Below, in pieces: positions 4,446-56,463 of a stretch of DNA of 64,000 nucleotides; position 1 is the stretch's first letter; each line of letters begins with the position of its first letter. Under the pieces are notes generated by a model. The model was given only the letters and a program-made list of their open reading frames with translations. It had not been told where the DNA came from and did no database searches. Source of the stretch: Galbibacter orientalis DSM 19592. GTDB taxonomy: Bacteria; Bacteroidota; Bacteroidia; Flavobacteriales; Flavobacteriaceae. A program made the translations under genes and the position numbers. The stretch is taken from the NCBI RefSeq assembly GCF_000260115.1, contig NZ_JH651379.1, positions 2,050,501 to 2,114,500 on the forward strand, written 5' to 3'.

Positions 4446-5198
4446 ATGGCATTACAAACAGAATTTAAGGTACAGGGGGATTTCCTTTTTAAGAACCGTA
4501 GCTATTTACCGCTACTTTTTCTGGCAGCGGGATTCGGCGTGTATCTATATGGGATATATTTTGAGCCACGGCAAGTTGAAAAAGTACCTGAAGGTTATTA
4601 TCAGTTTACCTGTTTAATGTTGAGTCTCTTGGGTTTGCTTATTCGGGTAACCACTATAGGGTATACACCTAGAAACACATCTGGCAGAAATACAAAAAAC
4701 GGTCAAATAGCAGATGAATTGAATACCACTGGAATGTACTCGCTCTTGCGCCACCCTTTATACTTAGGGAATTTCTTTATGTGGTTCGGGATAGCAATGC
4801 TTACTGGAAATATTTGGTTTACAGTAGCTTTCGTATTGCTATACTGGTTGTACTACGAACGCATTATGTATGCTGAAGAAAGCTATTTGATCAAAAAATT
4901 TGGCACAGATTACCTAAGGTGGTCAGCCATTACACCCGCTTTTATACCAAATTTTAAAAATTACCGCAAGGCAAAATACCCTTTTTGCCCTAAAAAGGTC
5001 CTGAAAAAAGAAAAGAATGGGTTCGCGGCCATATTTATTGTTTTCTGGTTTTTCGAATGGATTGGCGGTATGGTTGAAAAACAAAAAATAACCGTTGAAT
5101 TTAATTTTTGGTTTTATGCTGCCATAGCAAGCTGTTTCATATATCTCATTTTAAAAATAATGAAAAAGGGAAGTATGTTGACCGAAACCAATGTTTAG
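4446..5198 (+). CDS. Isoprenylcysteine-methyltransferase-like (LmtA/PEMT-type) membrane protein
   Basis: The 250-residue protein has several helices and the ICMT/PEMT core at about residues 95-165. This includes TTGMYSLLRHPLYLGNFF (the RHPxYxG S-adenosylmethionine site) and YYERIMYAEESYLIKKFG (the EE motif). The family methylates lipid or isoprenyl substrates at the membrane; Leptospira LmtA methylates the lipid A 1-phosphate. A lipid A phosphate substrate is inferred here from the ArnT-like neighbour before it and the PAP2 gene after it. About 65 residues follow the core, ending with a further helix. The upstream phased repeat box suggests envelope-stress control. The fold call is strong, the substrate speculative. 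Confidence 0.78.
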   Translation: MALQTEFKVQGDFLFKNRSYLPLLFLAAGFGVYLYGIYFEPRQVEKVPEGYYQFTCLMLSLLGLLIRVTTIGYTPRNTSGRNTKNGQIADELNTTGMYSLLRHPLYLGNFFMWFGIAMLTGNIWFTVAFVLLYWLYYERIMYAEESYLIKKFGTDYLRWSAITPAFIPNFKNYRKAKYPFCPKKVLKKEKNGFAAIFIVFWFFEWIGGMVEKQKITVEFNFWFYAAIASCFIYLILKIMKKGSMLTETNV

Positions 5199-12415: not shown

Positions 12416-15064
12416 ATGATCAATAAAATCATCGCTTTTTCCATCCGGAACAAGCTTATCGTGGGACTGATGGTACTCGCACTCGTGGGAGTGGGCGTCT
12501 ATTCAATGTCCACCATTAACCTGGGCGCACAGCCCGATATTACCAATAACCAGGTACAGGTTATCACACAGTCGCCCAATCTGGCCACCGAAGACATCGA
12601 GCAATTTGTAACCTATCCCGTAGAGTTGGCGATGGCCAACCTACCGGGCGTTACAGAAGTAAGGTCTATCTCGCGTTTTGGGCTTTCGGTGGTGACCATT
12701 GTTTTTAAGGACGATATGGGCACGTACCTGCCCCGCCAACTGATTTCTGAAAAGCTCAACGAAGTAAAATCCGAGATTCCCGAACAATTCGGTAGTCCTG
12801 GAATGGGGCCGATCACCACCGGTCTGGGCGAAATCTATCAATATTCCCTAGTACCACAAGAAGGCTATGAGGATAAATTTTCTCCGACCAAATTACGAAC
12901 CATACAGGACTGGATCGTAAAACGCCAATTGGCCTTAACGGAAGGTGTTGTGGAAGTCAATGCTTTTGGTGGGAAGATCAAGCAATATGAAATTGCCATC
13001 GATCCCGCCAAACTCAATGCGATGGATGTAACAATGACGGAAGTCTTTGATGCCCTTCAGGAAAACAATGTGAATACCGGGGGCGCTTACATCGAAAAGA
13101 ACAAAATGGCCAATTTCATCCGTGGGGAAGGTTTGGCACGTTCGCTGGACGATATCCGTCAGATCGTGATAAAAAACGAAAATGGCCTGCCTATTTTAGT
13201 GAAAGACGTTGCCGAAAAAGTACATTTTGGGAGCCAAGTCCGCTACGGTGCCTTTACGCAGGATGGTCAAGAGGCTGTAGGGGGAACAATTATGATGCTG
13301 CGCGGTGATAACCCCAATTCAGTCGTGAATACCGTTAAGGACAGAATTAAAGAAGTACAGAAATCTTTGCCGGAAGGATTGAAGATCGTGCCTTTTTTAG
13401 ATCGAAGCGAACTCATCGGAAGGACTACGGCAACCATAGAGAAAAACCTTATAGAAGGGGCACTTATCGTGATTTTTGTACTGGTGCTGCTCCTCGGTAG
13501 TTTCCGTGGAGGATTGGTTACCGCTTCGTTAATTCCGCTTTCCCTGCTGTTTGCCTTTATTTTGATGAAAGCTTTTGGGGTCTGGGCCAACCTGATGTCC
13601 CTCGGGGCAATCGACTTCGGTATCATTGTCGATGGTGCTGTGATTATTGTGGAGGGAACGGTACACGAGATTGAAAAACGCATTAAACGTGGAAAACAGA
13701 GTTTTAATCAGTCCGAAATGGATGAAGTGGTCTATGATGCGAGTAGTACCGTAATGAATTCGGCCTTCTTTGGACAGATCATTATCCTGATCGTATTTAC
13801 ACCTATTTTATTCCTGACCGGGATCGAGGGCAAAATGTTCCGCCCTATGGCATTTACCTTCGGGTTTGCAGTATTAGGGGCGATTATATTATGCCTTACC
13901 TACGTACCGATGATTGCCTCGCTTACAATGAAACCGGCGACGAAAAAGAAAAATTGGTTTCATAAGATTGAAGATAAAATCTCGGGCTTTAGCAACGGGA
14001 TGATGAGCCGTATCAACAACGGCTATCGGCCGGTAATCCTGAAATCCCTGAACCACCGCATTATCGTACTGGTCATCGCAGTTGTACTGCTTGTCGGTGC
14101 CGGATATTCTTTTAGCCGAATGGGCGGGGAATTTATCCCAAGTATCGATGAAGGCGATATCGCAATGCAGGCCTTGTTAAGGCCGGGAAGTTCTTTGACC
14201 GAATCCATCGAGACTTCAAAGAGGATAGAGAATATTGTGCTGGACAACTTTCCCGAGGTGGAAACGATGGTGGCCCGGATCGGGGTGGCCGATATCCCGA
14301 CCGACCCGATGCCAATGGATATTGCCGATTCCTACATTATTTTGGACAAGGACAAGGATAATTGGACTTCGGCGGAAACAAAAGAGGAATTGATCGAAAA
14401 AATCAAAGAAAAATTATCGGTCGTTCCCGGGGTCAACTTCGTTTTTAGTCAGCCCGTGGAACTGCGATTTAACGAACTGCTTACCGGTGTTCGGGAAGAT
14501 GTAGCGATTAAATTGTATGGTGAAGATCTTGATGTTTTAACTGAAAAGGCTTCTAAAATGGCCAATATAATCAAGACCGTGCCCGGTGCCGGCGATGTGA
14601 ACCTGGAGGCCACCTCGGGACTGCCACAAATGACAGTTCGATTTAACCGAAGAAAGGTAGCCCAATACGGCCTGAACATCCAAAAACTGAACCAGTACGT
14701 AAGCACTGCTTTTGCGGGGAGTTCCGCAGGGGTCATCTTTGAGGGCGAAAAGCGCTTTGATATGGTTGTAAGATTGGACAAGGAACATCGCCAAAGCATC
14801 GATAATCTAAAAAACCTATTGATCGACCTGCCCGGTGGAAACCAGATCCCCATAAAAGAGGTGGCCGATATCAGTTACCAACCGGGACCGATGCAGATTT
14901 CCCGGGACAATACCTCTCGAAGGATTTACGTAGGGGTGAACGTACGGGGTCGAGATGTAGAATCAATGGTGCACGATATCCAGGCAAAAATGGATGAGCA
15001 ATTGGATCTGCCGCCCGGCTACCATATTGAATACGGCGGTGCTTTTGAATGTAAATTCCTGTAA
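12416..15064 (+). pseudogene. czcA: CzcA-type metal RND pump, N-terminal part of a disrupted CzcA-CzcC fusion
   Basis: The native frame runs 12416-15049 (878 codons). It then enters the IS element and ends with four foreign residues (CKFL) at 15064. The helix-4 signature AIDFGIIVDGAVIIVE near residues 398-413 is the CzcA/HME type for Zn, Co or Cd. Both periplasmic domains and helices 1-7 are present, while helices 8-12 lie beyond the insertion. Removing the 2547-bp IS and one target repeat joins GAFE to NLQRAKDRLVIVVPIAL in frame, giving about 1487 residues, close to the intact 1466-residue paralogue at 50831. The truncated protein should be inactive. Confidence 0.9.
15044..15049. repeat. Target-site duplication, left copy (TTTGAA)
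   Basis: TTTGAA directly abuts the left IS end and recurs at 17597-17602 beyond the right end. It encodes Phe-Glu in the pump frame. Six bases is within the range for IS21-family elements. Confidence 0.85.
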
Positions 15065-15152: not shown

Positions 15153-15881
15153 TCATTGTTTTTTTCTTTTTTTTCTCATGGATTCACCTTTAAGTTCCAC
15201 TCTATGTGCTGCATGTACCAGTCGATCTAAAATAGCATCAGCAATAGTTTGTTCTCCGATAATTTGATGCCATCCCATAATTGGTAGTTGTGAGGCTATG
15301 ATAGTAGCACGTTTTCCATGTCTATCTTCGATGATTTCCATAAAAGCTTGTCTTTTATTAGTATCAAGTTCTTGAAGTCCAAAATCATCAAGAATGAGCA
15401 AATCCTGTTTTTCTATTCTATCGATTTCTTTCATGTATGAACCGTCTGCTTTAGCTAGTTTGAGTTTAGCAAAAAGCTTATTGATATTGTAATATTTGAC
15501 TTTATACCCTAGAGAACAAGCTTGGTATCCAATAGCTGAGGCAATAAAGCTTTTACCAACACCTGTGCTTCCTGTAATGAGTATGTTTTCCTTGTTTTTA
15601 ATAAACTCGCACGATGTGAACCTAATTAATAGGTTTTTGTCAATCATTCGGCTGGATTCAAAAGATATCTCTTCTACAGAAGCTTTATATCTAAACTTGG
15701 CTGCTTTGGTTAATCGTTCTATTTTTCTATTGTGTTTATCATCCCATTCAGATTGTAATAAATACGCTACTAGCTCATCATTAGTATATGCTAGATGATT
15801 TGCTTCTAGTGTTGTCGTAAAGGCTCTATGCATGCCATATAGCCTTAGTTGTTTCATTTGTTGTAATGTTTGGTCATTCAT
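15153..15881 (-). CDS. istB: IS21 ATPase helper IstB
   Basis: The 242-residue AAA+ ATPase has Walker A ITGSTGVGKSF near residue 102 and Walker B DLLILDDFG near residue 162. A sensor region (TIIASQLPIMGWHQII) and a basic tail (KGESMRKKRKKQ) follow. IstB proteins bind DNA and stimulate the IstA transposase during target capture. It lies 17 bp downstream of istA on the same strand, as expected for the family. Length is typical (about 240-260), with no frameshift or missing motif. Confidence 0.95.
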   Translation of the reverse strand: MNDQTLQQMKQLRLYGMHRAFTTTLEANHLAYTNDELVAYLLQSEWDDKHNRKIERLTKAAKFRYKASVEEISFESSRMIDKNLLIRFTSCEFIKNKENILITGSTGVGKSFIASAIGYQACSLGYKVKYYNINKLFAKLKLAKADGSYMKEIDRIEKQDLLILDDFGLQELDTNKRQAFMEIIEDRHGKRATIIASQLPIMGWHQIIGEQTIADAILDRLVHAAHRVELKGESMRKKRKKQ

Positions 15882-15898
15882 AATTTATAATGATTTAA

Positions 15899-17443
15899 TT
15901 ATTTATAATAATCGCCCCCTCTGATGTTTCCATGCTTAGGGATTGTAGATTCTGTATTGGTATCTTCCTGTATAAAATCCAATCCTTTTTCAAGAATACT
16001 TTTAACACTTTGATAATTGATGCGTTCATAATCTAAAGCTCGTTTACAAGCATTATCAAGACGTTCATTCCCAACTTTTTTAGCTAGCCCTAATACACCA
16101 GCACAAGATTTATAGGATTGTTCAGGATGTTGTCTTTTTCCTAATAATAAAGTGATGAAAGTTTTACAATGGCCTCCAATACCTTCAGCCCAATTTAAAA
16201 AGGTGTCAGGATTCCAATCAGCTACATAACGATGTGTTGAAGGCATATGCTCGCTATCGGTAGTGTAACCATGACGTTTTAAGCCTCTTTTATGAACAGC
16301 AATCCGTTTTTGCTTATAGTAAATTTCAACGGTGTCTTTTGTATAAATGATGCGAACCTTCTTTCCTATATAACGATAAGGAACGCTGTAATAATGCTTA
16401 TCTTTATTAATGTGGATATGAGAGGTCTTATATACTGTTCCCATTAGGTAGGCACGTAGTTGATATTTATCTGTAGGCAATGGCAATAATTCTTCTTGCT
16501 CCAAAGATGTAAATAAATCTAACCTAGAACAGTCCCTTGCTTGAAAGTTAATTTTATTATGCTTCCCCGTGAGTTCTAATACAGCTTCATTTAAAGCACT
16601 TAAGGTATAATAATCATTCCCATTTAATGGAGCAAAAACTCTTGTGTAGATAATCTTTACAGCATTTTCTACTAGTGCCTTATCTCTTGGACGATAGGTT
16701 CTTGTTGGAAGTATCGTGGTATCATAATGAGTTGCCATAGCCAATAAACTCTCATTAAGGATAGGCTCATACTTGCTACTTTTTGTAACAGCTGACTTTA
16801 AGTTATCAGTTACTATTGCTCTAGGAACGCCTCCGAAAAAATGTAATGCACCTACTATGCACCCAATAAAATCCTCTCGTTTTTGTGAACGACAAGCTTC
16901 TACATAGGTATAGCCGCTTGCTCCTAGTACAGCAATAAATACTTCCATTTCTTTTAGTAAACCAGTAGCGGGATCTATGATAGCTAATTTCTTTCCTGTG
17001 AAGTCCACAAACATTTTATCCCCAGCCTTATGGTTAAATCGCATGACTGGATTTTGAGTACGAGACCAAACTCTATACAAATGACAAAATCTAGAATAAG
17101 AGATAAATACCTTTTTATTTTGATAATAGTCCTCCCAGATCATGTAACGAGTAACTCCAACCTTTTTAAGGCGTTTGCTTACCTCTGGGTATAACTTAAA
17201 AACATACTCATGACGAGTCGTTATGTGGGTCTCATCAATATGCAATAATATACGTAAATCTTCAAAACCAAGCTTATCAACCTCTTCACTTGTAAGCTTG
17301 CTCTTTAGTAATAATTCGATGTATTTGCGAACAGTATTCCTGGATATACCAAGTTGTTTACTGATGCTCCGCTTACTAACTCCTTGAGTATGTAAACGAT
17401 ATAGTTGTTTGATTTTTCGCATGTCTAAATGTATGTTTGCCAT
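15899..17443 (-). CDS. istA: IS21 transposase IstA
   Basis: The 514-residue transposase has an N-terminal helix-turn-helix (GVSKRSISKQLGISRNTVRKY) and a retroviral-integrase-like DDE core. Candidate acidic residues are D in KMFVDFTGKK, D in AIVTDNLKSAV, and E in DKALVENAVKIIY. A C-terminal Mu-transposase-like beta domain follows (VYKTSHIHINKDKHYYSVPY). It catalyses cut-out and insertion of the element together with IstB. It starts at ATG 17441-17443, about 150 bp inside the right end, and appears full length. Confidence 0.95.
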   Translation of the reverse strand: MANIHLDMRKIKQLYRLHTQGVSKRSISKQLGISRNTVRKYIELLLKSKLTSEEVDKLGFEDLRILLHIDETHITTRHEYVFKLYPEVSKRLKKVGVTRYMIWEDYYQNKKVFISYSRFCHLYRVWSRTQNPVMRFNHKAGDKMFVDFTGKKLAIIDPATGLLKEMEVFIAVLGASGYTYVEACRSQKREDFIGCIVGALHFFGGVPRAIVTDNLKSAVTKSSKYEPILNESLLAMATHYDTTILPTRTYRPRDKALVENAVKIIYTRVFAPLNGNDYYTLSALNEAVLELTGKHNKINFQARDCSRLDLFTSLEQEELLPLPTDKYQLRAYLMGTVYKTSHIHINKDKHYYSVPYRYIGKKVRIIYTKDTVEIYYKQKRIAVHKRGLKRHGYTTDSEHMPSTHRYVADWNPDTFLNWAEGIGGHCKTFITLLLGKRQHPEQSYKSCAGVLGLAKKVGNERLDNACKRALDYERINYQSVKSILEKGLDFIQEDTNTESTIPKHGNIRGGDYYK

Positions 17444-17602: not shown

Positions 17603-19432
17603 AACCTGCAACGGGCGAAAGACCGTTTAGTCATTGTGGTTCCCATTGCTTTGGCGCTTATTTTCCTATTACTCTATTTTGCGTTGGGTTCGTTATCACA
17701 ATCCATTATGATCTATATGGCGGTTCCCTTGGCGGCCATCGGCGGGATTTTTGCGCTTGCCATACGTGGGATGCCCTTTAGTATCTCCGCGGGTGTTGGT
17801 TTTATCGTACTCTTCGGGGTTGCGGTATTAAACGGCCTGGTACTCATCAGTAGATTGAACTCATTAAAAGAAGAAGGTGTTATGGATATACAGGAACGTA
17901 TTTTAATAGGGACACAGGAACGGATCCGTCCCATTTTATTGACGGCCCTGGCCGCAATAATGGGCTTTTTTCCGATGGCACTTTCCCACGGGGCGGGTGC
18001 TTCGGTACAGCGACCATTGGCAACGGTTGTCATTGGCGGATTGATAACCGCGACCTTGCTTACGCTTATCGTAGTTCCCATTTTATACAGTTTTGTTGAA
18101 AAAACTGGAAAAAACAACAACGGAAAATCGGGTAAAGTTGCTATAAACCCTGCCCTGATCGCCGTTTTATTGGGTCTTATATCAATGGCCATCCCGGCAA
18201 GTGCAAGTGCGCAAACGCAGGATAGCCTCCAGCAAAATGCGCCCCGGCAGGATAGCCTTCAGGTTGAACAAGGGTTTACCCCAATTTCTTTACAGGATGC
18301 GGTTGAAAAAGCCAAAGCGAACTATCCCAAGTTAAAAGCGGCCCAATTGGAAATAGAGAATCAACAGGCTCTGAAAAAAACGGCTTGGGATTTGGGAACT
18401 ACTAATATTTTTACGGGCGGTGAAGAGTTGCCGGACAGTCCCAATGGCGATGAAGGTATTTATACCACCATTGGCGTCCAGCAGCAGAATATCGATGTGT
18501 TCAGTATCGGTGCCAAAAATAGGGTACAAAATGAGAAAATTGCCCTAAGTGAAACGGCACTCGATCTAACCTCCCTTCAAGTCGAACGGGAAGTGAGCAA
18601 GGCCTGGGGCGATGCCTACACCTCCAAACGGAAGTACCAATTGTATGTGGAACTCGATTCCATTTTTAGCGATTTTGAACGGGCGGCGCGTATCCGTTAT
18701 GAGACCGAGGCTTCCTCGAAGCTGGAATATTTGGCCGCCACCAATCAGGCCCGGCAGGTAAGCCTTCAGAAAATGCAGGTCTATCGGGATTATCTGGGCA
18801 ATCTGCAAAAACTGAATTTATGGCTGGTGAGCGATACGCTCTTTACCGTTGCGGATGCAGGTGTAGATGAAATGGACACGCCCATACTACAGCGAAAGGA
18901 TTCGATCACGAGCCACCCGATGCTGCAATATTATGAGCGGCAGATCGAGGTGGCCGATGCCGAGCGTAATCTCAGCAACAAAGCGTTTTTCCCAAAGTTC
19001 AACGCACAATATGGGCGGCAGAAAATTGCGGGACAGAACGGATTCTTCAACTTTCAGGTCGGGATTTCCATTCCGCTCTTTTTCGGCCCTGAACTGGGGC
19101 AGGCGCAATCGGCCAAAATACAGACCCAGATTGCGGAGCAGAATTTCAGGGAAAAACAGCTTCAGGTCAATTCAAAATATAAGGACCTGCAACAGGACTA
19201 TCTAAAATGGCTGGAATCTTGGCAGTACTATGAACAGGAAGCCCTTCCGCTGGCCAAAGAGCAACGGGACGGGGCGGTTTTTGCCTATAAAGAGGGCGGT
19301 ATCGATTATACCACCTTTCTGCAAACGGTACGCGACGCCATAGGCATTCAAAGTAAGTCCTGGGATGCACTTAACAATTATCTGAGATCAAAATACGAAC
19401 TGGAATTTTTCCTCAATTCCGCTAAACAATAA
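17603..19432 (+). pseudogene. C-terminal part of the disrupted CzcA-CzcC fusion (pump helices 8-12 plus outer-membrane factor)
   Basis: The segment resumes the frame of 12416 after the IS. Residues from GTG 17636 (MVPIALALIFLLLYFALG) cover RND helices 8-12, including FSISAGVGFIVLFGVAVLNG. The pump ends near FVEKTGKNNNGKSGK. Next comes a signal-peptide-like stretch (LIAVLLGLISMAIPASASAQ, AxA site near 18211) and then a complete outer-efflux protein from about 18270 to 19432, with FFNFQVGISIPLFFGPELGQ. Reinitiation at GTG 17636 could still make the outer-membrane factor. The layout matches the intact paralogue at 50831. Confidence 0.88.
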
Positions 19433-32198: not shown

Positions 32199-35100
32199 AT
32201 GTTAAATAAGGGTATAAAATTCCTCATAGAAAATAAACTTATCGCTGTACTTATGCTCACGATTTTTGTGGGCTGGGGCATCGTTAATGCCCCATTTAAT
32301 TGGGACACCGGTTTTCTTCCCACAGATCCAGTTGCGGTAGATGCAATCCCTGATATTGGGGAAAACCAGCAAATCGTATTCACTAAATGGGAAGGCCGTT
32401 CCCCACAGGATATTGAAGATCAGATAAGTTATCCGCTTACCACCGCGTTATTGGGTATTCCGGGGGTAAAGACCATCCGTAGTTCTTCAATGTTCGGATT
32501 TTCCAGCATCTATATTATTTTTGATGAAGATGTTGAATTTTATTGGAGCCGAAGCCGCATTCTTGAAAAATTGAATTCCCTGCCCAATGGTCTTTTGCCT
32601 GATGGCGTAAACCCAAGTTTGGGTCCAGATGCGACCGGATTGGGTCAGATTTACTGGTACACTTTGGAAGGCCGTGATAAAGACGGAAATGTAACCGGGG
32701 GATGGGATTTACAGGAACTGCGCAGTATTCAGGATTATTACGTGAAATACGCCCTTTCTTCCGCTAGCGGGGTTTCTGAAGTAGCTTCTATTGGTGGTTT
32801 TCAAAAGGAATATCAAATAGATGTAGACCCCGAAAAAATGCGGCAGTACAACATCGGTCTAGGAGATGTTGTAACCGCAATAAAAGAGAGCAACAAGGAT
32901 ATTGGTGCACAAACCCTTGAAATAAACCAAGCTGAATATCTGGTGCGCGGTTTGGGCTATGTGAAATCGGTAGGGGATATTGAAAATGCAGTTGTTACTT
33001 CCGAAGATTATACTTCGATACGGGTCAAAGATATTGCCCACGTGCATTTAGGCCCTGCCCCACGTCGTGGGATTTTGGACAAGGAAGGCGCCGAAGTGGT
33101 AGGTGGTGTTGTAGTGGCCCGAAACGGGGCAAACCCGATGGAGGTCATCAACAACGTAAAGGGCAAAATAAAAGAACTGAGTTCGGGATTGCCGACCAAG
33201 AAATTGAAAGATGGCCGGACTTCCCAATTGACCATCGTTCCTTTTTACGATCGAACAGAGCTTATTAACCAAACATTAGGTACGCTCGATGAAGCACTGA
33301 CCCTTGAAATATTGATAACGATTCTGGTGATCATCGTGATGGTCTTCAATTTAAGGGCGTCTTTACTTATTTCAGGATTACTTCCAGTCGCGGTGTTGAT
33401 GGTGTTCATTGCGATGAAATTTTTTAATGTGGATGCCAATATCGTGGCTCTATCGGGAATTGCCATTGCCATTGGGACAATGGTGGATGTGGGGGTAATC
33501 CTCTGTGAAAATATTATCAGGTATTTAGACGAAGAAGATAAACGGGTTCAACAAGGGGAAATCAGACAGCCCATCAACACGCTTGTCTATAATGCTACTG
33601 CGGAAGTTTCAGGGGCAATTATCACTGCGGTACTGACCACAATCATCAGTTTTATTCCCGTATTTACGATGATAGGTGCGGAAGGAAAGTTGTTCCGCCC
33701 ATTGGCTTTTACCAAAACAATGGCATTAACAGCATCTCTTATTGTTGCTTTATTCCTTATTCCGCCATTTGCCGCATTCCTGTTCCGAAGAAAAAGCATC
33801 CGAAAAACGACCGCGCATATCATCAACGTAGTATTGATCTTTTTGGGGATCACCGTGATAGTTTTTGGATATTGGTTGGGCCTTATTTTGATTGCCTTCG
33901 GAATTGTGGGTCTTTTAAAAGATGAAAAAATTGCATCAAGGGTTTCGGACAGACTGTGGCTTTCTGAAAAGCGTGCGAACATCGTCAATATGATTATTTC
34001 CGCAATCGCCATCATATTTCTTTTGGCAGAATACTGGCGACCCTTGGGCTTTGACCGAAGCATTATGATCAACCTTCTTTTTGTGGGGATTATCTGTTTT
34101 GGTCTTTTGGGTGCATTCTGGGTACTTAAACATTATTATTCCAGCATTTTGAAATGGGCTTTGCGCAATAAAGTGTTATTTCTTTGCATCCCTACCACCG
34201 TTTTCGTCTTGGGCGTTTTAATAATGACAAATATTGGCAAGGAATTTATGCCCTCGCTCAACGAAGGTTCATTCTTGCTAATGCCCACATCGCTGCCACA
34301 CGCCGGTGTAGCGGAAAACAAGCGGGTATTACAGCAACTGGATATGGCCGTGGCAGGAATACCCGAGATTAAGACCGTAGTGGGAAAATCGGGACGGACG
34401 GAATCGGCGCTCGATCCCGCTCCCTTGTCGATGTATGAAAATATCATCCAGTATAAATCGGAATATATGGAGGATTCCGATGGAAGTCCACAACGCTATA
34501 AAGTGAACGAAGATGGGTTTTTTATACTGAAAGATGGCGGTTTGGTGACCAATCCTAACAATGAGGTTACCAATTCGGAAAACTACAAAAATGCTAAAAT
34601 TGAAGATCCGCTCCTTATTAACACAGGAAACCTTATACCGGATGAAGACGGGGAATTCTACCGAAACTGGCGTCCAAAAATACAATCCCCCGATGACATC
34701 TGGAACGAGATCATAAAGGTCACCAAACTTCCCGGGGTCACTTCCGCTCCTAAATTGCAACCTATCGAGACCCGTTTGGTAATGTTACAGACTGGGATGA
34801 GGGCACCAATGGGTATAAAGGTCAAAGGTCAGGATCTGAAACAGATTGAAGCCTTCGGTTTAAAATTGGAAGATATTTTAAAACAGGCGAAAGGTGTAAA
34901 AAAGGAAGCTGTTTTTGCGGACCGTATAGTCGGTAAGCCCTATCTGTTGATCGATATAAAAAGGGAACGGCTTGCCCGTTACGGCATTTCCATTGAAGAT
35001 GTACAACAGGTTCTTCAAGTTGCCGTGGGTGGGATGCCTTTAACGCAAACCGTTGAAGGCCGTGAACGTTATGGCGTTCGAGTGCGGTATCCAAGGGAAC

Positions 35101-36026
35101 TTCGCGGAAACGCTAATGAAATAAAAGATATTTATGTACCCGTGGAAAAAGGCAACCCGGTGCCCCTTGGGGAATTGGTGGACATCCGTTACGAAAAAGG
35201 GCCTCAGGTCATTAAAAGTGAAGATACATTCTTGGTTGGTTATGTCCTCTTTGATAAACTCGATGGCTTTGCAGAAACCAATGTAGTGGAAAATGCCCAG
35301 GCACTTATCCAACAGAAAATCGATACCGGTGAACTTACCGTCCCAAAAGGGATCAATTACAAATTTACGGGAACTTATGAAAACCAGATACGAGCCGAAA
35401 AAACCTTATCGATAGTCGTTCCGCTTGCACTCATCATTATCTTTTTAATCCTTTATTTTCAGTTCCGTTCAGTATCGACTTCTTTAATGGTTTTTACTGG
35501 GATTGCGGTCGCTTTCGCGGGTGGATTTATAATGATCTGGCTGTATGGGCAGGACTGGTTCTTCAATTTCAACTTCTTTGGGGAGAACCTCCGGGATCTT
35601 TTCAATATGAAAACCATCAATTTAAGTGTGGCCGTCTGGGTGGGCTTTATCGCTTTGTTTGGTATTGCCACCGATGATGGGGTGGTTATGGCGACTTACC
35701 TCACCCAGACATTTGATAAAAATGACCCAATGGACAAAGCGGCCATTAGGGAATCTGCTTTGTTTGCGGCCCAAAAACGTATCCGCCCCTGCTTGATGAC
35801 CACGGCAACCACCATACTTGCTCTGTTGCCCGTTTTGACCTCCACCGGCCGGGGAAGTGATATTATGATCCCAATGGCGATACCAAGTTTTGGTGGGATG
35901 ATCATTGACGTCACCTCCTATTTTATTGTACCCGTATTATTTAGTTGGAAAAAGGAAGCTGCACTTTCGCGGAAGAAGAAAGCACTAAAAAACAAATCAG
36001 GGAATACCAAAAATATTTCGAGATGA
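32199..36026 (+). CDS. cusA: CusA-type copper/silver RND pump
   Basis: The 1275-residue protein has helix-4 signature SGIAIAIGTMVDVGVILCEN around residue 430, the CusA (monovalent) class rather than the DFG type seen in the two CzcA pumps. ETRLVMLQTGMRAPMGIKV includes one Met equivalent to the CusA methionine relay. Extra length over E. coli CusA comes mainly from an insertion between about residues 740 and 840 (NEVTNSENYKNAKIE and around). It exports Cu(I) or Ag(I) from periplasm to outside. Its TGA stop overlaps the ATG of the TolC gene (ATGA at 36023). The matching adaptor lies much further away, at 48250. Confidence 0.92.
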   Translation: MLNKGIKFLIENKLIAVLMLTIFVGWGIVNAPFNWDTGFLPTDPVAVDAIPDIGENQQIVFTKWEGRSPQDIEDQISYPLTTALLGIPGVKTIRSSSMFGFSSIYIIFDEDVEFYWSRSRILEKLNSLPNGLLPDGVNPSLGPDATGLGQIYWYTLEGRDKDGNVTGGWDLQELRSIQDYYVKYALSSASGVSEVASIGGFQKEYQIDVDPEKMRQYNIGLGDVVTAIKESNKDIGAQTLEINQAEYLVRGLGYVKSVGDIENAVVTSEDYTSIRVKDIAHVHLGPAPRRGILDKEGAEVVGGVVVARNGANPMEVINNVKGKIKELSSGLPTKKLKDGRTSQLTIVPFYDRTELINQTLGTLDEALTLEILITILVIIVMVFNLRASLLISGLLPVAVLMVFIAMKFFNVDANIVALSGIAIAIGTMVDVGVILCENIIRYLDEEDKRVQQGEIRQPINTLVYNATAEVSGAIITAVLTTIISFIPVFTMIGAEGKLFRPLAFTKTMALTASLIVALFLIPPFAAFLFRRKSIRKTTAHIINVVLIFLGITVIVFGYWLGLILIAFGIVGLLKDEKIASRVSDRLWLSEKRANIVNMIISAIAIIFLLAEYWRPLGFDRSIMINLLFVGIICFGLLGAFWVLKHYYSSILKWALRNKVLFLCIPTTVFVLGVLIMTNIGKEFMPSLNEGSFLLMPTSLPHAGVAENKRVLQQLDMAVAGIPEIKTVVGKSGRTESALDPAPLSMYENIIQYKSEYMEDSDGSPQRYKVNEDGFFILKDGGLVTNPNNEVTNSENYKNAKIEDPLLINTGNLIPDEDGEFYRNWRPKIQSPDDIWNEIIKVTKLPGVTSAPKLQPIETRLVMLQTGMRAPMGIKVKGQDLKQIEAFGLKLEDILKQAKGVKKEAVFADRIVGKPYLLIDIKRERLARYGISIEDVQQVLQVAVGGMPLTQTVEGRERYGVRVRYPRELRGNANEIKDIYVPVEKGNPVPLGELVDIRYEKGPQVIKSEDTFLVGYVLFDKLDGFAETNVVENAQALIQQKIDTGELTVPKGINYKFTGTYENQIRAEKTLSIVVPLALIIIFLILYFQFRSVSTSLMVFTGIAVAFAGGFIMIWLYGQDWFFNFNFFGENLRDLFNMKTINLSVAVWVGFIALFGIATDDGVVMATYLTQTFDKNDPMDKAAIRESALFAAQKRIRPCLMTTATTILALLPVLTSTGRGSDIMIPMAIPSFGGMIIDVTSYFIVPVLFSWKKEAALSRKKKALKNKSGNTKNISR

Positions 36027-37255
36027 TAAAAAAAAGAAAATACAAAATAATTTTGGTACTTGTTTTTTGCTTGTATGCAGGTTTTGCCGAAGCACAACAA
36101 CTGCAATCCTACATTCAGGAAGCCGAATCCAACAATCCGGATATCCAAGCGTATGAATTGCGGTATAATATTGCAGAAGAAAAAGTGAACGAGGTAAACT
36201 CGCTGCCCAATACCGAATTTGGGGCGGGCTATTTTGTGAGCGAGCCGGAAACCCGTACCGGGGCGCAGCGGTCTCGTTTTTCGGTCAAGCAGATGCTGCC
36301 TTGGTTCGGTACAATAACCGCAAGGGAAAATTACGCATCTTCAATGGCCGATGCAGAATACGTGGAGATTGCCATTGCGAAAAGAAAATTGGCACTTTCT
36401 GTTTCACAATCCTACTATCAGCTGTATGCCATTACCGCCAAACAGCAGGTTTTGGAAGAAAACATCCAGTTGCTCAAAACATACGAGCGGTTGGCACTTA
36501 CATCGGTAGAAGTTGGTAAGGCTTCTGCCGTAGATGTACTTCGGTTGCAGATCAGGCAAAATGAACTGGAAAAGGAAAAGGATATTTTGATGGAAGATTT
36601 TCTTGCCGAAAAAGTCCAGTTCAACAACCTGCTAAACAAGGCAGAGAAAGCTCCAATATCGGTAGTTGATACGATGATCGTTCCTTTGGAAAAAGCTGAT
36701 TTTTCTTCCGAAGACTTAAAACTTCATCCAGAGATTTTAAAGTACGACAAGTTATTTGAATCGATAGCACAGTCAGAAGCACTCAATCAAAAAGAGAGTC
36801 TGCCCAACATAGGTGTGGGACTGGATTATATACCCGTTGCCGAACGCCCAGCGATGAATTTCAGCGACAACGGAAAAGATATATTAATGCCAATGGTGTC
36901 TGTATCCATTCCCATATTCAACAACAAATACAGCTCACTTACCAAACAAAACAAGTTGAGGCAGCAAGAGATAACGGCTCAAAAACAAGACCGTTTAAAC
37001 AAATTGAAGACCCTTTTTGCCCAGGCGATCCAAAACCAGAATTCAGCAAGGATAAGCTACGACACCCAATTAGAAAACTTGAAACAAGCAAATGATGCCG
37101 AAGATATCCTGATCAAGAACTATGAAACGGGAACGATAGATTTTAACGATGTGCTTGATATTCAGGAACTGCAATTGAAATTTCAGATGAACCAAATCGA
37201 GTCGGTTAAAATGTATTATGTGCAATCGGCCATTATTAATTATTTAACCAACTAA
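36023..37255 (+). CDS. CusC-like TolC-family outer-membrane factor
   Basis: The start is ATG 36023, which overlaps the cusA stop and gives a proper signal peptide (KYKIILVLVFCLYAGFAEAQ). An earlier in-frame ATG at 35945 lies inside cusA and lacks one. The 410-residue protein has two OEP repeats, with RFSVKQMLPWFGTITAREN near residue 82 and PMVSVSIPIFNNKYSS in the second half. It provides the outer-membrane channel for CusA. The HMA-AraC regulator gene starts 2 bp after its stop, so the three are one operon. Confidence 0.9.
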   Translation: MIKKRKYKIILVLVFCLYAGFAEAQQLQSYIQEAESNNPDIQAYELRYNIAEEKVNEVNSLPNTEFGAGYFVSEPETRTGAQRSRFSVKQMLPWFGTITARENYASSMADAEYVEIAIAKRKLALSVSQSYYQLYAITAKQQVLEENIQLLKTYERLALTSVEVGKASAVDVLRLQIRQNELEKEKDILMEDFLAEKVQFNNLLNKAEKAPISVVDTMIVPLEKADFSSEDLKLHPEILKYDKLFESIAQSEALNQKESLPNIGVGLDYIPVAERPAMNFSDNGKDILMPMVSVSIPIFNNKYSSLTKQNKLRQQEITAQKQDRLNKLKTLFAQAIQNQNSARISYDTQLENLKQANDAEDILIKNYETGTIDFNDVLDIQELQLKFQMNQIESVKMYYVQSAIINYLTN

Positions 37256-50830: not shown

Positions 50831-53800
50831 ATGTTAGATAAAATCATTCAATTTTCGATCAACAATAAGCTTGTTGTCGGAATATTAACCTTGTTCCTTA
50901 TTGGGTGGGGAACCTATTCACTTACCAAACTGCCCATAAGCGCCGTACCGGATATTACAGATAATCAGGTAATGGTCATAACCGTTTCCCCCACCCTTGC
51001 CGCGCAAGAGGTCGAACAGCTTGTTACTTTTCCGGTCGAACAGACAATGGTAAGTATCCCTGAAATAAAGGATATGCGGTCATTTTCCCGGTTTGGGCTT
51101 TCCATAGTAACCATCGTTTTTGAGGAAGATACCGATCTGTATTGGGCACGGCAGCAAGTGCAAGAACGCCTATCATCCGCAGCAGACGAAATCCCGGAAG
51201 GCGTGGGAAAACCTGAAATGGCACCGGTCACAACAGGACTTGGGGAAATATACCAATACACCGTACTTCCCGAAGAAGGTTATGAAGACCAATACGATGT
51301 TACCGAACTGCGAACGATACAGGATTGGATCATTAAACGGCAGTTATTGGGAACGAAAGGAGTTGCCGAAGTGAGCGGTTTTGGTGGCTTTGTAAAGCAA
51401 TATGAAATTGCCATAGACCCCAATAAGCTTCAAAGTATGGATATAACCATTGAAGATATTTTTACGGCACTTGAAATGAACAACCAGAATACGGGCGGGG
51501 CTTATATTGATAAAGGCCCCAATGCATACTTTATTAGAAGTGAGGGCTTGGTCAACAATCTGGATGAAATAAATAAGATAGTTGTCAGGGAAAGTAATGG
51601 AACCCCCATACTGATAAGGGATGTCGCCAAAGTACAGTTTGGCCACGGGATCCGTTATGGTGCTGCAACCCGCAACGGTGAAGGCGAAGTGGTCACGGGA
51701 ATTGTAATGATGCTCAAAGGAGCAAACTCTTCCGCAGTTATTTCCGATGTAAAGGAAAAAATTGAACAAATTAAGCAAACCCTTCCCGAAGGGGTGACCA
51801 TTGAGCCCTTTCTAGATCGGAAACATCTTGTGGATCGTGCAATCGGCACCGTGACCACAAACCTTGTAGAAGGTGCATTGATCGTTATTTTTGTTTTGAT
51901 ACTCTTCTTGGGTAACCTACGTGGTGGCTTGGTGGTAGCATCGGTGATACCGCTCTCAATGTTATTTGCAATAGCAATGATGAACCTCTTTGGGGTCGCG
52001 GGTAACCTGATGAGCCTGGGTGCGATAGATTTTGGCCTTATTGTAGATGGGGCGGTGATCATTGTTGAATCTGTAATGTTCGGTATTCATAGCGGTAAAA
52101 AGAAGTATGCCGGGGTTGAAAAGTTGTCTTCTGGACAAATGGATGTTGAAGTAAAAAGCTCAGCAGGTAAAATGATGAATTCCGCTGCCTTTGGACAAAT
52201 CATCATACTCATCGTTTACCTGCCTATTTTGGCTTTGAGCGGGGTCGCAGGAAAAATGTTCCACCCAATGGCACAAGCGGTGATGTTTGCTATTCTGGGG
52301 GCATTGATATTATCGCTTACATACGTTCCGATGATGTCTGCCCTTGCATTGGGCCGCAAAACAGCACATAAGAGGAATTTTTCCGATAAAATGATGGATT
52401 TTTTCCAGCGTATTTATAGCCCCATTATAGAAGCTGCCCTTCGCGCGAAGCTTTTGGTCCTTGGATTGGCAATAGGTTTATTCATTATTACGCTAATAAT
52501 GTTTTCCTATATGGGTGGCGAATTTATTCCTCAATTGGACGAAGGGGATTTTGCGGTGGAAACCAGAGTACCTGTGGGAAGTTCCGTTCAGCAGTTGATC
52601 GATGTTTCCCAAAAAGCGCAGACCATTTTATTAAAGGAATATCCGGACGAAGTAACACAAGTGGTCAATAAAATTGGTTCTGGGGAAATCCCAACAGACC
52701 CTATGCCCATTGAGGCCGGCGATATGATGGTGATCCTGAGCCCGAAAGACGACTGGACAAGTGCCGATGGTAGGGAAGGTTTGATAGCGGAAATGCAGGA
52801 ATCTTTATCAGTTATTCCTAACGCTACCTTTAGTTTTCAACAACCCATACAGATGCGTTTTAATGAATTATTGACCGGGGCAAAACAAGATGTGGTACTG
52901 AAGATTTATGGGGAAGAATTGTCCACGCTTTCAGATTTGGCCAATGAAGTGGGACAGAAAATAAAATCTGTAGAAGGGGTCAACGATTTATATGTGGAGG
53001 AGATTACGGGTTTACCTCAAATCAAGATCAAATTAAACCGTGATAAAATTGCGCAATATGGCTTGAATGTGGCCGATATAAATAACGCCATTGAAACCGG
53101 TTTTGCCGGAAAATCGGCGGGAATGGTATTTGAAGGGGAAAGGCGTTTCGATCTCGTAGTACGTCTGCAAGAAGAAAGCCGTGGCGATATAACAGATGTT
53201 GAAAATCTATACATAGGTACTCCCGAAGGCCAACAAATCCCGCTCAGTGAGGTTGCCAATGTATCCTTTGAGCCCGGCCCCGTCCAAATACAACGGGATA
53301 ATGCAAAACGTCGGGTTATGGTTGGCTTTAATGTACGTGATAGGGATGTTCAAAGTATTATTGAGGACATCAAGCAGATTATGGCTACTAATGTTGATAT
53401 GCCACCAGGTTATTATGTAACCTACGGCGGACAATTTCAGAACCTGAAAGAGGCCAATCAACGGTTAATGATCGCACTACCTGTAGCTTTACTATTAATC
53501 CTAATACTGCTCTATTTTGCTTTTGGCTCTATAAAACAAAGTTTACTCATTTTTACGGCCATACCTTTATCTGCTATTGGTGGCGTGTTTGCGCTGCTTC
53601 TTCGTGGTATGCCATTTAGTATTTCGGCCGGAGTTGGTTTTATTGCCTTGTTTGGAATTGCTGTTTTAAATGGAATAGTGCTTATTGCAGAATTTAACAG
53701 GCTAAAAGAAGAAGGGGTCACAGATACTTATGAACGTGTTCTTAAAGGTACACGCGTGAGACTCAGACCCGTATTAATGACCGCTACCGTAGCTGCCCTT

Positions 53801-55231
53801 GGATTCTTGCCAATGGCATTGGCCACATCATCCGGTGCAGAGGTACAGCGGCCATTGGCCACGGTGGTAATAGGTGGGCTAATTACGGCTACGGCATTAA
53901 CCCTAATCGTGCTTCCTGTCCTGTATATATATTTTACGGAAGGAAAGCTAAAATTGAATTTAAAAAGAAAGAAAATTTCCACTGTTTTAGTTGTAATTGG
54001 AGGAATGTTCTTTCCGGCGATGCAACTTCAAGCACAAGAAATGGATCAGGTGCAGGAGCGGGAACTTACTTTACAGCAAGCCATTGAAATTGCACTTCAG
54101 AATAATAACCGTATTAAGATCGCACAATATGACATAGATGTTGAGGAAACAGGAAAGTACGGTGCGATAACCATTCCCAAAACAGAATTTTCCTATTCAA
54201 GTGGCGAATTTAACACACCCACAATAAAGGATAATTCATATGGAGTTATCCAGCGGATCAATTTTCCTACAGTTTACACTAGTCAGTTCAAGTTGGCAAA
54301 AGCCAGGGTCAAAAGTAGTGAACAACTTAAGGCCATAGCCGAAAATGAACTGATTGCCGACGTAAAAGTTGCCTATTTAAGGTATGTGTTCTTAATGGAA
54401 AATAAACAATTGCTACAGCGCCAAGATAGCCTGTACAGCAACCTTGACAGATCCAGCTCGATGCGTTATAAAACCGGCGAATCCACAAAGCTGGAAAGTG
54501 TGACCTCGGCAACACAATCGATGCAAATAAAGAACAAGCTTCAACAGAACGAGGCCGATTTGAGAATTGCCAATAAACGGTTACAGGTAGTCTTGAAAAC
54601 CAATGATAATATTAGTGTTGCTGATGCTGAACTGGTTCCCCGGGAGATTGATTTGGATATCGAAAGCCAATCCGTGGAGCAAAGTCCCTTGTACGTTTAT
54701 TTAAAACAACAATTGGCCGTAAGGAAACGGGAGACCAACGTGGAAAGGAACAAAGTATTACCTGACCTTATGTTCGGTTATAACAGCCAAACCTTTGTAG
54801 GGGATCAATTTATAGATGGTCAGGACATTCAATATGATAGTGGTGATCGGTTTTCCTATTTTCAGGTAGGTGTGGCTATCCCTATTTTTCCGGGAGGGCA
54901 CCGTTCCAAGATCAACGCGGCAAAAATTGAAGAGGATATCGCCCAGTCTCAAATGGAGCTGAAGCAGACCCAATTGGAAGGCGAGTTACAAAACTTGTTA
55001 CAGGAATATTACAAACTTCAGGGCACTTTAAATTACTATCAAAATGAAGCCCTGCCACAAGCGGAACTAATCATTAATAATTCGGAAAAGAGCTTTAAAA
55101 GCGGTAATGTTTCTTATGCCCAATACCTGCAAAACCTCACTTTGGCGAATAGTATTCAGACAGAATATTTAAATACACTTTATCAATATAACCAGTCCAT
55201 CATAGTAATCGAAGCCTTATTGGGCCTGTAA
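50831..55231 (+). CDS. CzcA-CzcC fusion: divalent-metal RND pump joined to its outer-membrane factor
   Basis: The 1466-residue protein has a complete CzcA-type pump at about 1-1040, with AIDFGLIVDGAVIIVES near D400 and helices 8-12 ending YIYFTEGKLKLNL. At about 1045-1068 comes a sequence with all parts of a signal peptide: KRKK, a hydrophobic core (STVLVVIGGMFFPAMQ) and LQAQ. A full outer-efflux protein follows to residue 1466 (FQVGVAIPIFPGGHRSK). After cleavage by signal peptidase the chain would give both pump and channel. It is the intact paralogue of the gene split by the IS at 15050. Substrate is Zn, Co, Ni or Cd. Confidence 0.93.
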   Translation: MLDKIIQFSINNKLVVGILTLFLIGWGTYSLTKLPISAVPDITDNQVMVITVSPTLAAQEVEQLVTFPVEQTMVSIPEIKDMRSFSRFGLSIVTIVFEEDTDLYWARQQVQERLSSAADEIPEGVGKPEMAPVTTGLGEIYQYTVLPEEGYEDQYDVTELRTIQDWIIKRQLLGTKGVAEVSGFGGFVKQYEIAIDPNKLQSMDITIEDIFTALEMNNQNTGGAYIDKGPNAYFIRSEGLVNNLDEINKIVVRESNGTPILIRDVAKVQFGHGIRYGAATRNGEGEVVTGIVMMLKGANSSAVISDVKEKIEQIKQTLPEGVTIEPFLDRKHLVDRAIGTVTTNLVEGALIVIFVLILFLGNLRGGLVVASVIPLSMLFAIAMMNLFGVAGNLMSLGAIDFGLIVDGAVIIVESVMFGIHSGKKKYAGVEKLSSGQMDVEVKSSAGKMMNSAAFGQIIILIVYLPILALSGVAGKMFHPMAQAVMFAILGALILSLTYVPMMSALALGRKTAHKRNFSDKMMDFFQRIYSPIIEAALRAKLLVLGLAIGLFIITLIMFSYMGGEFIPQLDEGDFAVETRVPVGSSVQQLIDVSQKAQTILLKEYPDEVTQVVNKIGSGEIPTDPMPIEAGDMMVILSPKDDWTSADGREGLIAEMQESLSVIPNATFSFQQPIQMRFNELLTGAKQDVVLKIYGEELSTLSDLANEVGQKIKSVEGVNDLYVEEITGLPQIKIKLNRDKIAQYGLNVADINNAIETGFAGKSAGMVFEGERRFDLVVRLQEESRGDITDVENLYIGTPEGQQIPLSEVANVSFEPGPVQIQRDNAKRRVMVGFNVRDRDVQSIIEDIKQIMATNVDMPPGYYVTYGGQFQNLKEANQRLMIALPVALLLILILLYFAFGSIKQSLLIFTAIPLSAIGGVFALLLRGMPFSISAGVGFIALFGIAVLNGIVLIAEFNRLKEEGVTDTYERVLKGTRVRLRPVLMTATVAALGFLPMALATSSGAEVQRPLATVVIGGLITATALTLIVLPVLYIYFTEGKLKLNLKRKKISTVLVVIGGMFFPAMQLQAQEMDQVQERELTLQQAIEIALQNNNRIKIAQYDIDVEETGKYGAITIPKTEFSYSSGEFNTPTIKDNSYGVIQRINFPTVYTSQFKLAKARVKSSEQLKAIAENELIADVKVAYLRYVFLMENKQLLQRQDSLYSNLDRSSSMRYKTGESTKLESVTSATQSMQIKNKLQQNEADLRIANKRLQVVLKTNDNISVADAELVPREIDLDIESQSVEQSPLYVYLKQQLAVRKRETNVERNKVLPDLMFGYNSQTFVGDQFIDGQDIQYDSGDRFSYFQVGVAIPIFPGGHRSKINAAKIEEDIAQSQMELKQTQLEGELQNLLQEYYKLQGTLNYYQNEALPQAELIINNSEKSFKSGNVSYAQYLQNLTLANSIQTEYLNTLYQYNQSIIVIEALLGL
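54031..54039 (+). other. Predicted internal signal-peptidase site in the CzcA-CzcC fusion
   Basis: The residues LQAQE around 1066-1070 follow a basic KRKK and a hydrophobic stretch, as at a normal signal peptide end. The same arrangement is found at ASASAQ near 18200-18215 in the disrupted paralogue. Cleavage would separate pump from outer-membrane factor. Confidence 0.5.
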
Positions 55232-55263
55232 CAAACTTAATGCTACCATTAAAATATAAAAAG

Positions 55264-56463
55264 ATGAAAATTCAATTCAATACAAAAATTTCACTGCTCA
55301 TTTTATCCACCCTATTTATAGTGGCTTGCGGCAACAAGGATTCAGAAAAAATGGAAACTTCCGCAGGATCTTCTATGCCAAAAGAACAGCCTGCTGCAAA
55401 CGGGGCCAAACAGATCACTTTTACAAAGGATCAATACAATCTTGCCGGAATAGAAACCGGGGAGATCGAAATGAGAAATCTTAGCAACATTATTAAACTC
55501 AACGGTGTTATTGATGTGGAACCCAAAAGTATGGCCTCTGTATCTGCCCCGTTAGGTGGGTATGTAAAAACCGCCGGAAAGTTACCTGGAGAAGAAGTCA
55601 AAAAAGGACAGGTCCTGGCAACGATCGAAAACCCTGAATTTATCCAAATCCAACAGGATTACCTTGAAAGCTTAGGCAAGCTGCAATTTCTTGAAGAAGA
55701 ATATAATAGACAAAAACAATTAAGGGAAGAGGACATCAATTCTGCAAAAACTTTCCAACAGGTTTCTTCAGATTATAAAATAACACAAGGCCGGGTCAAG
55801 GCGTACGAACAACAACTTGCGCTTGTCGGAATCAGTAGAAAATCTGTTCAAAACGGGAACATTTCACGGACAGCAAACCTTTATGCACCTATAACAGGTT
55901 TTGTAAAAACAAGCAATGTGAATATCGGTGATTATGTGTCACCACAAGATGTGCTCTTTGAAGTGGTTAATTTGGAGGATATTCATTTGGCATTGAATGC
56001 CTTTGAAAAAGATCTGGGAAAAATCGAAGTAGGCCAAACCGTAAAATTCTCCCTTGCCAATGATAATAAATTCAACCGTACAGCAGAAGTTTTTTTAATA
56101 GGAAAAGCTACAGGAAACGATCGCATCACACCTGTTTACAGCCATATAAAAAAAGAAGACAAAAAAGGCATATTACCGGGAATGTACGTGAAAGCCTGGA
56201 TAGAAAGCGGTACAGATAAGCAAAAGGCGATCCCATCGGAAGCCATTGTTCAATATGAAGGAAAGGATTTTATAATCCTTCAAACCGAAAAATCTGATAA
56301 TGCTTATACTTTTAAATTGGAACAGGTAAAAAAAGGAATTGAGCAGGAAGGATACACGGCCATAACCTTTGCTGAAAATGCTGATGTCAGCAATTTCAAG
56401 CCGGTGGTCAAGAATGCCTATTCCATTTTGTCCGCATTGAGAAATTCGGAAGAAGAAGAATAG
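55264..56463 (+). CDS. czcB: CzcB-like periplasmic adaptor, lipoprotein (second module)
   Basis: ATG 55264 is chosen because a lipobox (FIVAC) then follows a normal signal peptide; an in-frame ATG at 55240 adds eight residues (MLPLKYKK). The 399-residue protein has lipoyl halves GGYVKTAGKLPGEEVKKGQV and ITGFVKTSNVNIGDYVSPQD and a coiled-coil hairpin (LGKLQFLEEEYNRQKQL). A barrel and a membrane-proximal domain follow. It lacks the His-rich linker of the adaptor at 19444 and ends RNSEEEE. It lies 32 bp after the fusion pump gene and 33 bp before the MFS gene. Confidence 0.9.
   Translation: MKIQFNTKISLLILSTLFIVACGNKDSEKMETSAGSSMPKEQPAANGAKQITFTKDQYNLAGIETGEIEMRNLSNIIKLNGVIDVEPKSMASVSAPLGGYVKTAGKLPGEEVKKGQVLATIENPEFIQIQQDYLESLGKLQFLEEEYNRQKQLREEDINSAKTFQQVSSDYKITQGRVKAYEQQLALVGISRKSVQNGNISRTANLYAPITGFVKTSNVNIGDYVSPQDVLFEVVNLEDIHLALNAFEKDLGKIEVGQTVKFSLANDNKFNRTAEVFLIGKATGNDRITPVYSHIKKEDKKGILPGMYVKAWIESGTDKQKAIPSEAIVQYEGKDFIILQTEKSDNAYTFKLEQVKKGIEQEGYTAITFAENADVSNFKPVVKNAYSILSALRNSEEEE

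Follow-up and report, generated by a model that had tools for sequence, protein, structure and literature searches.

The window, a stretch of 64,000 nucleotides of the Galbibacter orientalis DSM 19592 genome, carries on its forward strand a gene (50831..55231; 1466 amino acids, ~162 kDa uncut) that joins a CzcA/CusA pump and a TolC/CusC-type outer-membrane factor (OMF) in a single frame. The pump part (aa 1-1037; 50831..53941) belongs to the HME-RND family, exceeding the curated cut-off of the CusA/CzcA model TIGR00914 (1201.8 bits vs 701.45) and spanning nearly all of it (positions 1-1037 of 1051). Its twelfth transmembrane helix (TM12) follows R1007 and appears as a helix at ~1010-1036 in the predicted structure. 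The OEP domain PF02321 was also above its cut-off, with the best stretch at aa 1278-1465. A CzcB-type periplasmic adaptor gene (55240..56463, forward strand) begins directly 3' of the fusion stop, giving the gene order A-C-B with A and C in one frame. The pump half is predicted to be a heavy-metal transporter working with an OMF and an adaptor, the gene for which adjoins.

The first-pass annotation had described a basic segment, a hydrophobic core and a small-residue site behind the last pump helix, and all three are present where it placed them. On the forward strand, the basic n-region FTEGKLKLNLKRKK (53933..53974; aa 1035-1048), predicted to be cytoplasmic, is followed by the h-region ISTVLVVIGGMFFPAM (53975..54022; aa 1049-1064), an uncharged core of 16 residues that the structural model renders as a short low-confidence helix at ~1047-1059, and by the c-region QLQA (54023..54034; aa 1065-1068). 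The junction thus has the basic n-region, uncharged h-region, small -1 residue and small or aliphatic -3 residue of a Sec signal for signal peptidase I, the gene for which is present in the genome. The predicted cut between A1068 and Q1069 would leave a mature OMF of 398 aa (54035..55228, forward strand; ~45.5 kDa) with an N-terminal Gln. This site is among the weaker ones, having Leu at -3, which is permitted by the -3 rule applied; it scored 1.9, the 10th percentile of linkers, on a crude home-made matrix trained on SusC signal peptides. Such a weak site is common to two of the five intact copies in this genome (L001 and L002). An in-frame TTG (53954..53956, forward strand), a candidate internal start, lies seven codons before the core, behind AAGGAAAG.

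The mature OMF alone gave an AlphaFold model with a pLDDT of 90.5 and a complete CusC-like fold, for which the best PDB matches found by Foldseek were SilC and CusC (CusC 3pik, TMq 0.75). Together with the OEP domain, the α-barrel/β-barrel fold of this model places the protein in the TolC/OMF family. Across the fusions surveyed below, 4-19 aa (median 7) separate the predicted cut from the first OMF helix, H1, which forms part of the equatorial domain, mid-way on an α-barrel ~100 Å long (PMC8277102). With so short a spacer, an uncut chain would not allow the OMF to reach the outer membrane.

The first-pass annotation spoke of two fusions, one intact and one broken; both are real, but the genome holds five intact fusions and one broken copy. 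The broken copy, also in the window, consists of a 5' piece (12416..15064, forward strand; pump model positions 1-871) and a 3' piece (17636..19432, forward strand) with the pump end, internal signal and OMF. They are split by an insertion on the reverse strand (15153..17443), in which 15899-17443 alone matched an IS21 model and encodes an IS21-family transposase; we take the second ORF (15153-15881) to be its helper ATPase. The linker of the broken copy (18098..18211, forward strand) comprises a basic stretch from EKTGKNNNGKSGK (18098-18136), a core at 18152-18199 and SASA to 18211, followed by Q. The ASASAQ motif that had been noted near 18211 is exactly placed, the -1 Ala codon in ASASA-Q ending at 18211. 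As a control, the window also encodes, on the forward strand, an unfused CusA-type pump of another subfamily (32199..36026) and its separate OMF (36023..37255), the start of which overlaps the pump stop (ATGA) and which by eye has the N-terminal signal MIKKRKYKIILVLVFCLYAGFAEA followed by Q.

A fusion-sized pump frame was found in 37 of 60 genomes of the class, and in 133 cases, a few of them ended by contig edges, the frame was open from the pump through the linker into the OMF. Four of the 133 were removed for linkers at least 80% alike, leaving a survey set of 129 non-redundant Bacteroidota fusions; L028, L030, L037 and L111 were left out as repeats of L092, L093 and L094. Searching by the motif RPLATVV at the TM12 end placed 21 fusions only, many relatives reading KPLATVV; alignment instead placed all of the first 60. 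A 1777-aa frame (L049) was dropped as a fusion, as its pump frame extends upstream and no OMF was seen in the stretch examined.

The n/h/c anatomy was present at 129/129 junctions, with an uncharged core of 9-16 aa (16 being the upper search bound) and a net charge of at least +1 over the 12 residues before it in 123/129. [AGST]Q stood directly after the core in every one of the 129 fusions, compared with 201/1704 hydrophobic segments from elsewhere in these pumps; adding the -3 rule gave 122/129 against 102/1704. The -1 residue was A in 113 linkers, G in 9, S in 5 and T in 2. Gln at +1, found on average in 71% of Bacteroidetes signal peptidase I substrates (PMC5837995), was likewise universal among the linkers, in a search that had Q as part of the pattern. 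When the residues after the core were shuffled in the first 60 fusions, the strict rule was obeyed in 3977/12000 trials vs 57/60 observed. In an alignment of 25 fusions (A2) for which no site was chosen beforehand, the A and Q columns were nearly invariant (at least 90% conserved). The SusC-trained matrix, from whose training set 4 of 30 N-termini lacking a small-Q site were left out, separated linkers from controls with an AUC of 0.941 with Q and 0.772 without; 67/129 linkers scored above the 99th percentile of the controls, and with the Q-blind matrix the best site was followed by Q in 72/129. Simple patterns for a Tat motif and a lipobox-like motif matched 0/129 linkers each, and Tat and lipoprotein signals were discarded as readings of the segment; the lipidated N-terminal Cys of OMF lipoproteins such as CusC and OprM, a group that does not include TolC, is accordingly not predicted here.

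Relatives divided at the same junction provide a further line of evidence. Pumps whose OMF is encoded by its own gene nest among the fused ones, and by eye 16 of 17 separate OMFs carry the same kind of signal at their N-terminus, the remaining one (L158) having no clear start or signal. In L149 and L175, the pump and internal signal are followed by a different domain instead of an OMF, ~170 residues long in L149; a Pfam search returned no name for either domain. Both have an in-frame Met upstream of the internal signal.

Taken together, the n/h/c anatomy, the Gln at +1, the short spacer, the signal-bearing separate OMFs and the exchanged partners of L149 and L175 best support the reading already offered in the first-pass annotation, namely that the gene in all likelihood encodes a polyprotein from which signal peptidase I would release the OMF at an internal Sec signal. 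An alternative, which we consider unlikely, is that most OMF arises by translation from an internal start shortly before the signal, a relic of a separate gene; the segment would then be an ordinary N-terminal signal peptide and the full-length fusion a by-product. In 43/129 fusions the core has an in-frame ATG ahead of it, and in 69/129 any of ATG, GTG or TTG. By eye, 16 of the first 60 place an ATG 2-6 codons ahead of the core, against ~7.5 expected at an ATG frequency of 0.025, often with an A-rich sequence upstream; the TTG of the window copy is a further candidate. However, all three codons are absent between TM12 and the core in 60/129, and an ATG anywhere in that interval occurs in 21 of the first 60, matching the codon-frequency expectation of 20.6. 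The window's TTG is not shared by its paralogue L002, no ATG, GTG or TTG precedes the core in the linker of the broken copy, and L051 is still fused with ACG in place of the ATG of four related fusions. The in-frame fusion has, moreover, been kept across a large clade. Some members may re-initiate translation internally.

An uncut thirteenth helix in place of a signal, leaving the OMF tethered to the pump, appears very improbable. The tether would set a 1:1 ratio, and 76/129 segments reach at least 1.6 in a 19-residue hydropathy window, but the other 53 fall below this value, compared with 0/129 for TM12, and the spacer of so few residues, the small-Q site kept in every fusion and the existence of relatives with separate pump and OMF genes argue against it. 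There is next to no likelihood of a dead gene, or of a fusion created by an error of sequencing or annotation: one of six copies in this genome is split by an insertion sequence, yet five are intact, and the arrangement recurs in the 37 class genomes and 133 open frames described above.

For the polyprotein, we propose that the twelve pump helices insert and leave the pump C-terminus in the cytoplasm, upon which the hydrophobic segment that follows the basic linker would act as an internal Sec signal, pulling the OMF across into the periplasm. The junction would very probably be cut by signal peptidase I, here behind A1068, and the new N-terminal Gln would probably be cyclised, like that of other Bacteroidetes substrates of this enzyme. 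The OMF would then fold, trimerise and move to the outer membrane, while the spent signal would remain on the pump as a C-terminal tail. Synthesis would be roughly 1:1; the fixed ratio proposed in the first-pass annotation is likely, though not strict, because in some members an in-frame ATG retained upstream of the signal could serve as a second start. More tentatively, the cytoplasmic C-terminus of Bacteroidota RND pumps might serve as an export launch site whose signal sends out whatever follows, mostly the cognate OMF but a different domain in L149 and L175, with pump and channel born together in equal number and in one place, perhaps assembling before or during the cut.

The system resembles the CusCBA/CzcCBA tripartite pumps in its pump family (TIGR00914), OMF fold and adjoining adaptor gene, and differs in having pump and OMF in one frame in the order A-C-B. 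CusC is acylated, whereas the OMF here has a signal peptidase I-type signal with Gln at +1. OprM has a palmitoyl anchor (PMC8277102). The Q-rule substrates of Bacteroidetes share the small -1 residue and the Gln at +1, but their signals are N-terminal, whereas this one is internal, after twelve helices. A close parallel is FbcH, the cytochrome b/c1 polyprotein of Bradyrhizobium and relatives, in which an internal signal peptide links a multi-helix inner-membrane protein to an exported partner and signal peptidase cuts the chain. The fusion described here has this layout in its sequence and is predicted to be cut likewise; the products of FbcH, however, belong to a respiratory complex and both lie in the inner membrane, whereas our second product should reach the outer membrane. 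The name 'cytochrome b/c1 subunit' occurs in PMC12456017. In QsdH of Pseudoalteromonas, an exported protein, a GDSL hydrolase, is likewise joined to a CzcA-like RND pump, with a signal that its authors suggest is perhaps uncut (PMC3466314); the exported part there lies on the N-terminal side, and there is no OMF. Our search of the open-licence literature found no description of a pump-OMF fusion, and nothing on point concerning internal signals in bacteria or the processing of FbcH; papers on zinc in Riemerella and on Mesorhizobium added nothing.

Should the cut take place, many families within a single phylum make a two-membrane pump out of a polyprotein, and the stoichiometry and assembly order of the pump become directly testable, with relatives that have separate genes or an exchanged partner as ready comparisons. 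The fused arrangement occurs in many Bacteroidota and is mostly annotated as a pump alone. If the chain is cut, entries so named may conceal an outer-membrane protein, and the location predicted for the last quarter of the chain may be incorrect; among the plasmid records listed, 23 of 25 bear only the annotation 'CusA/CzcA family RND transporter'.

The open reading frame at 50831-55231 (+) encodes a product of 1466 residues in which a CusA/CzcA-type RND pump is joined in frame to an outer-membrane factor (OMF): residues 1-1037 score above the cut-off of TIGR00914, the CusA/CzcA model, and the C-terminal part above that of PF02321 (outer membrane efflux domain). TM12 of the pump lies after R1007, and behind it come the basic stretch FTEGKLKLNLKRKK (residues 1035-1048), the uncharged core ISTVLVVIGGMFFPAM (residues 1049-1064) and, directly after the core, QLQA and then Q1069, with signal peptidase I (SPI) predicted to cut at A1068/Q1069. 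A CzcB-type adaptor starts at 55240, directly after the stop of the fusion. The window's second fusion copy is split into two pieces, 12416-15064 and 17636-19432, with an IS21-family transposase inside the gap, and its 3' piece retains an equivalent junction, SASA/Q at 18211. The first-pass annotation had described both copies as pump-OMF fusions with an internal signal peptide, an observation confirmed by the matches to TIGR00914 and PF02321 and by the two junctions. Five intact fusions are present in the Galbibacter orientalis genome. The IS21-family element spans 15153-17443 within the second fusion gene; positions 8772-57753 form a metal-resistance region with several RND pumps, a heavy-metal P-type ATPase (44996-47722) and a protein resembling multicopper oxidases (37890-40301).

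Among 129 fusions remaining after four near-duplicates were dropped, [AGST]Q was found just past the core in all 129, versus 201 of the 1704 hydrophobic segments elsewhere in these pumps that served as controls, and [AGST]Q combined with the -3 rule in 122 junctions versus 102 of the 1704 control segments. The -1 residue, before Q, was A in 113, G in 9, S in 5 and T in 2. These fusions are related and hence not independent, so no p-value is attached to the junction counts. Because the junction pattern search itself included Q, an alignment of 25 fusions with no site chosen beforehand provides the fairer figure: the A and Q columns were at least 90% conserved, and 23 of the 24 other fusions in this alignment shared only 25-47% identity with the window protein. 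A small scoring matrix built from 26 SusC signal peptides separated junctions from controls with an AUC of 0.941 with Q and only 0.772 without it, placing 67 of the 129 junctions above the 99th percentile of controls; the window's own junction was among the weak scorers. The multicopper oxidase-like protein at 37890-40301 (labelled by eye), which is secreted, has the same LQA/Q end in its N-terminal signal, as read by eye, so Galbibacter orientalis probably tolerates Leu at -3. Bacteroidetes SPI substrates carry Gln at +1 in 71% on average, and pyroglutamate at this position has been reported in five species (PMC5837995); the same source notes that inner-membrane proteins are still to be tested.

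The window fusion and its kin are probably cut at the junction, and the proposal in the first-pass annotation of a processed polyprotein is supported by the junction conservation, the spacer geometry and the relatives with a separate OMF. The computed mass is 162 kDa for the uncut chain and 117 and 45.5 kDa for the cut products. Modelled alone from Q1069, the OMF part formed a complete OMF with high confidence (pLDDT 90.5), with SilC and CusC as its best structural matches. The spacer from the predicted cut to the first OMF helix measures 4-19 residues (median 7), whereas helix H1 of known OMFs is part of the equatorial domain, at mid-height of the ~100 Å periplasmic barrel (PMC8277102), with the pump and adaptor sitting beneath that domain; on this geometry, an uncut chain could therefore hardly span from the membrane to the position of H1. 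The hydrophobicity of the junction segment is often lower than that of a membrane helix, falling below 1.6 in a 19-residue hydropathy window in 53 of the 129 fusions (at or above 1.6 in the other 76), compared with none of the 129 for TM12. When the C-terminal 465 residues were modelled, the segment came out as a short, low-confidence helix. The genome carries a gene for signal peptidase I.

The OMF could instead arise from translation starting within the fusion gene. Of the 129 fusions, 43 carry an in-frame ATG in the stretch from TM12 to the core and 69 carry at least one in-frame ATG, GTG or TTG there, leaving 60 with none. In the first 60 fusions, ATG occurred there in 21, against 20.6 expected from codon use; 16 of those 21 lay 2-6 codons before the core, against about 7.5 expected (both figures are our own count), as would fit start-codon relics. 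However, the locus L051 has ACG in place of the ATG found in four related fusions and its gene is still fused, and the TTG that the window copy carries behind a AAGGAAAG sequence is absent from its paralogue L002. Some members may make additional OMF by internal initiation, but this can hardly be the general route.

TIGR00914 matches (E <= 1e-250) were obtained in 47 of 60 genomes sampled from the class, that of Galbibacter orientalis included, with up to 10 candidates scored per genome; 45 of the 72 matches listed, from 37 genomes, have fusion-sized open frames (1435-1504 aa), counted by eye on frame length only. Across the phylum, with two candidates scored per genome, at least 289 of 392 genomes gave a match. 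True fusions were found at 55 of 56 loci picked by frame length from the phylum matches listed, and in all five own copies, while a scan of named genomes gave 73 fused and 7 unfused forms in the best 80 of 508 relatives, both samples being biased toward fused forms by construction. These best 80 are Bacteroidota as far as recognised, with genera including Aquimarina, Algoriphagus, Chryseobacterium, Pedobacter, Chitinophaga, Spirosoma, Hymenobacter and Flavobacterium. Thirty public plasmid records showed at least 80% query coverage; among the best 25 of them, the gene is named only as a transporter or pump of the CusA/CzcA family in 23, while the other 2 list no gene at that place. Domain databases probably show the pump-OMF architecture; no description of a pump-OMF polyprotein was found in the open-licence literature searched, and the addition to known biology would be a tripartite metal pump made as a polyprotein across many families within a single phylum.

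Among 17 relatives with a separate OMF that were examined by eye, the OMF starts in 16 with a signal peptide that resembles the fused junctions, such as MKTSISTIFLLLISSFSLA/Q at locus L102, the exception being L158. In an 85-row tree of the pump part, built by a quick method without bootstrap and with a warning on long branches among outgroup rows, a single clade of 67 rows (SH-aLRT 100) holds all fused pumps except three GC-rich ones, and ten separate-OMF pumps are nested inside it at three places; from this nesting we infer the direction of change. At least five changes between the fused and separate states are needed in this tree and at least nine in a 161-row tree, where the placements of L145, L158, L159 and L171 are weakly supported. 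L045, L081 and L092 are GC-rich-looking loci with fusion linkers of negative net charge and a clade of their own in the pump tree, and may represent a second origin of the fusion. At L158 (Arachidicoccus ginsenosidivorans, ~4604-4660), the OMF is out of frame with the pump and shows no clear start by eye, reflecting a frameshift or else a break of recent date.

At 32199-37255 the window encodes a 1275-aa CusA-type pump and a separate OMF, the OMF start overlapping the pump stop (ATGA); ATGA overlaps likewise occur in L095, L159 and L171. At L149 (1444-5202) and L175 (1477-5205), the pump is followed by an internal signal (ITAQA/Q and VSAQA/Q, respectively) and a ~170-residue unknown domain with zero Pfam matches at E <= 1, the OMF being encoded separately and carrying a signal of its own. 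Because the internal signal here leads into a domain other than an OMF, it suggests an exchangeable export module, although both loci also have an in-frame Met before the signal. Repeat-like DNA was seen by eye between pump and OMF in L096-L101, L103 and L104, and the repeat TTTGCGAACTTTGCG lies in frame within the n-region of the OMF signal in L096, L098, L099 and L100. The reversed control pattern is absent from all five genomes searched (G222, G206, G314, G000 and G057), and exact copies of TTTGCGAACTTTGCG, absent from G000 and G057, number 49 in G222, 29 in G206 and 11 in G314, often as inverted pairs.
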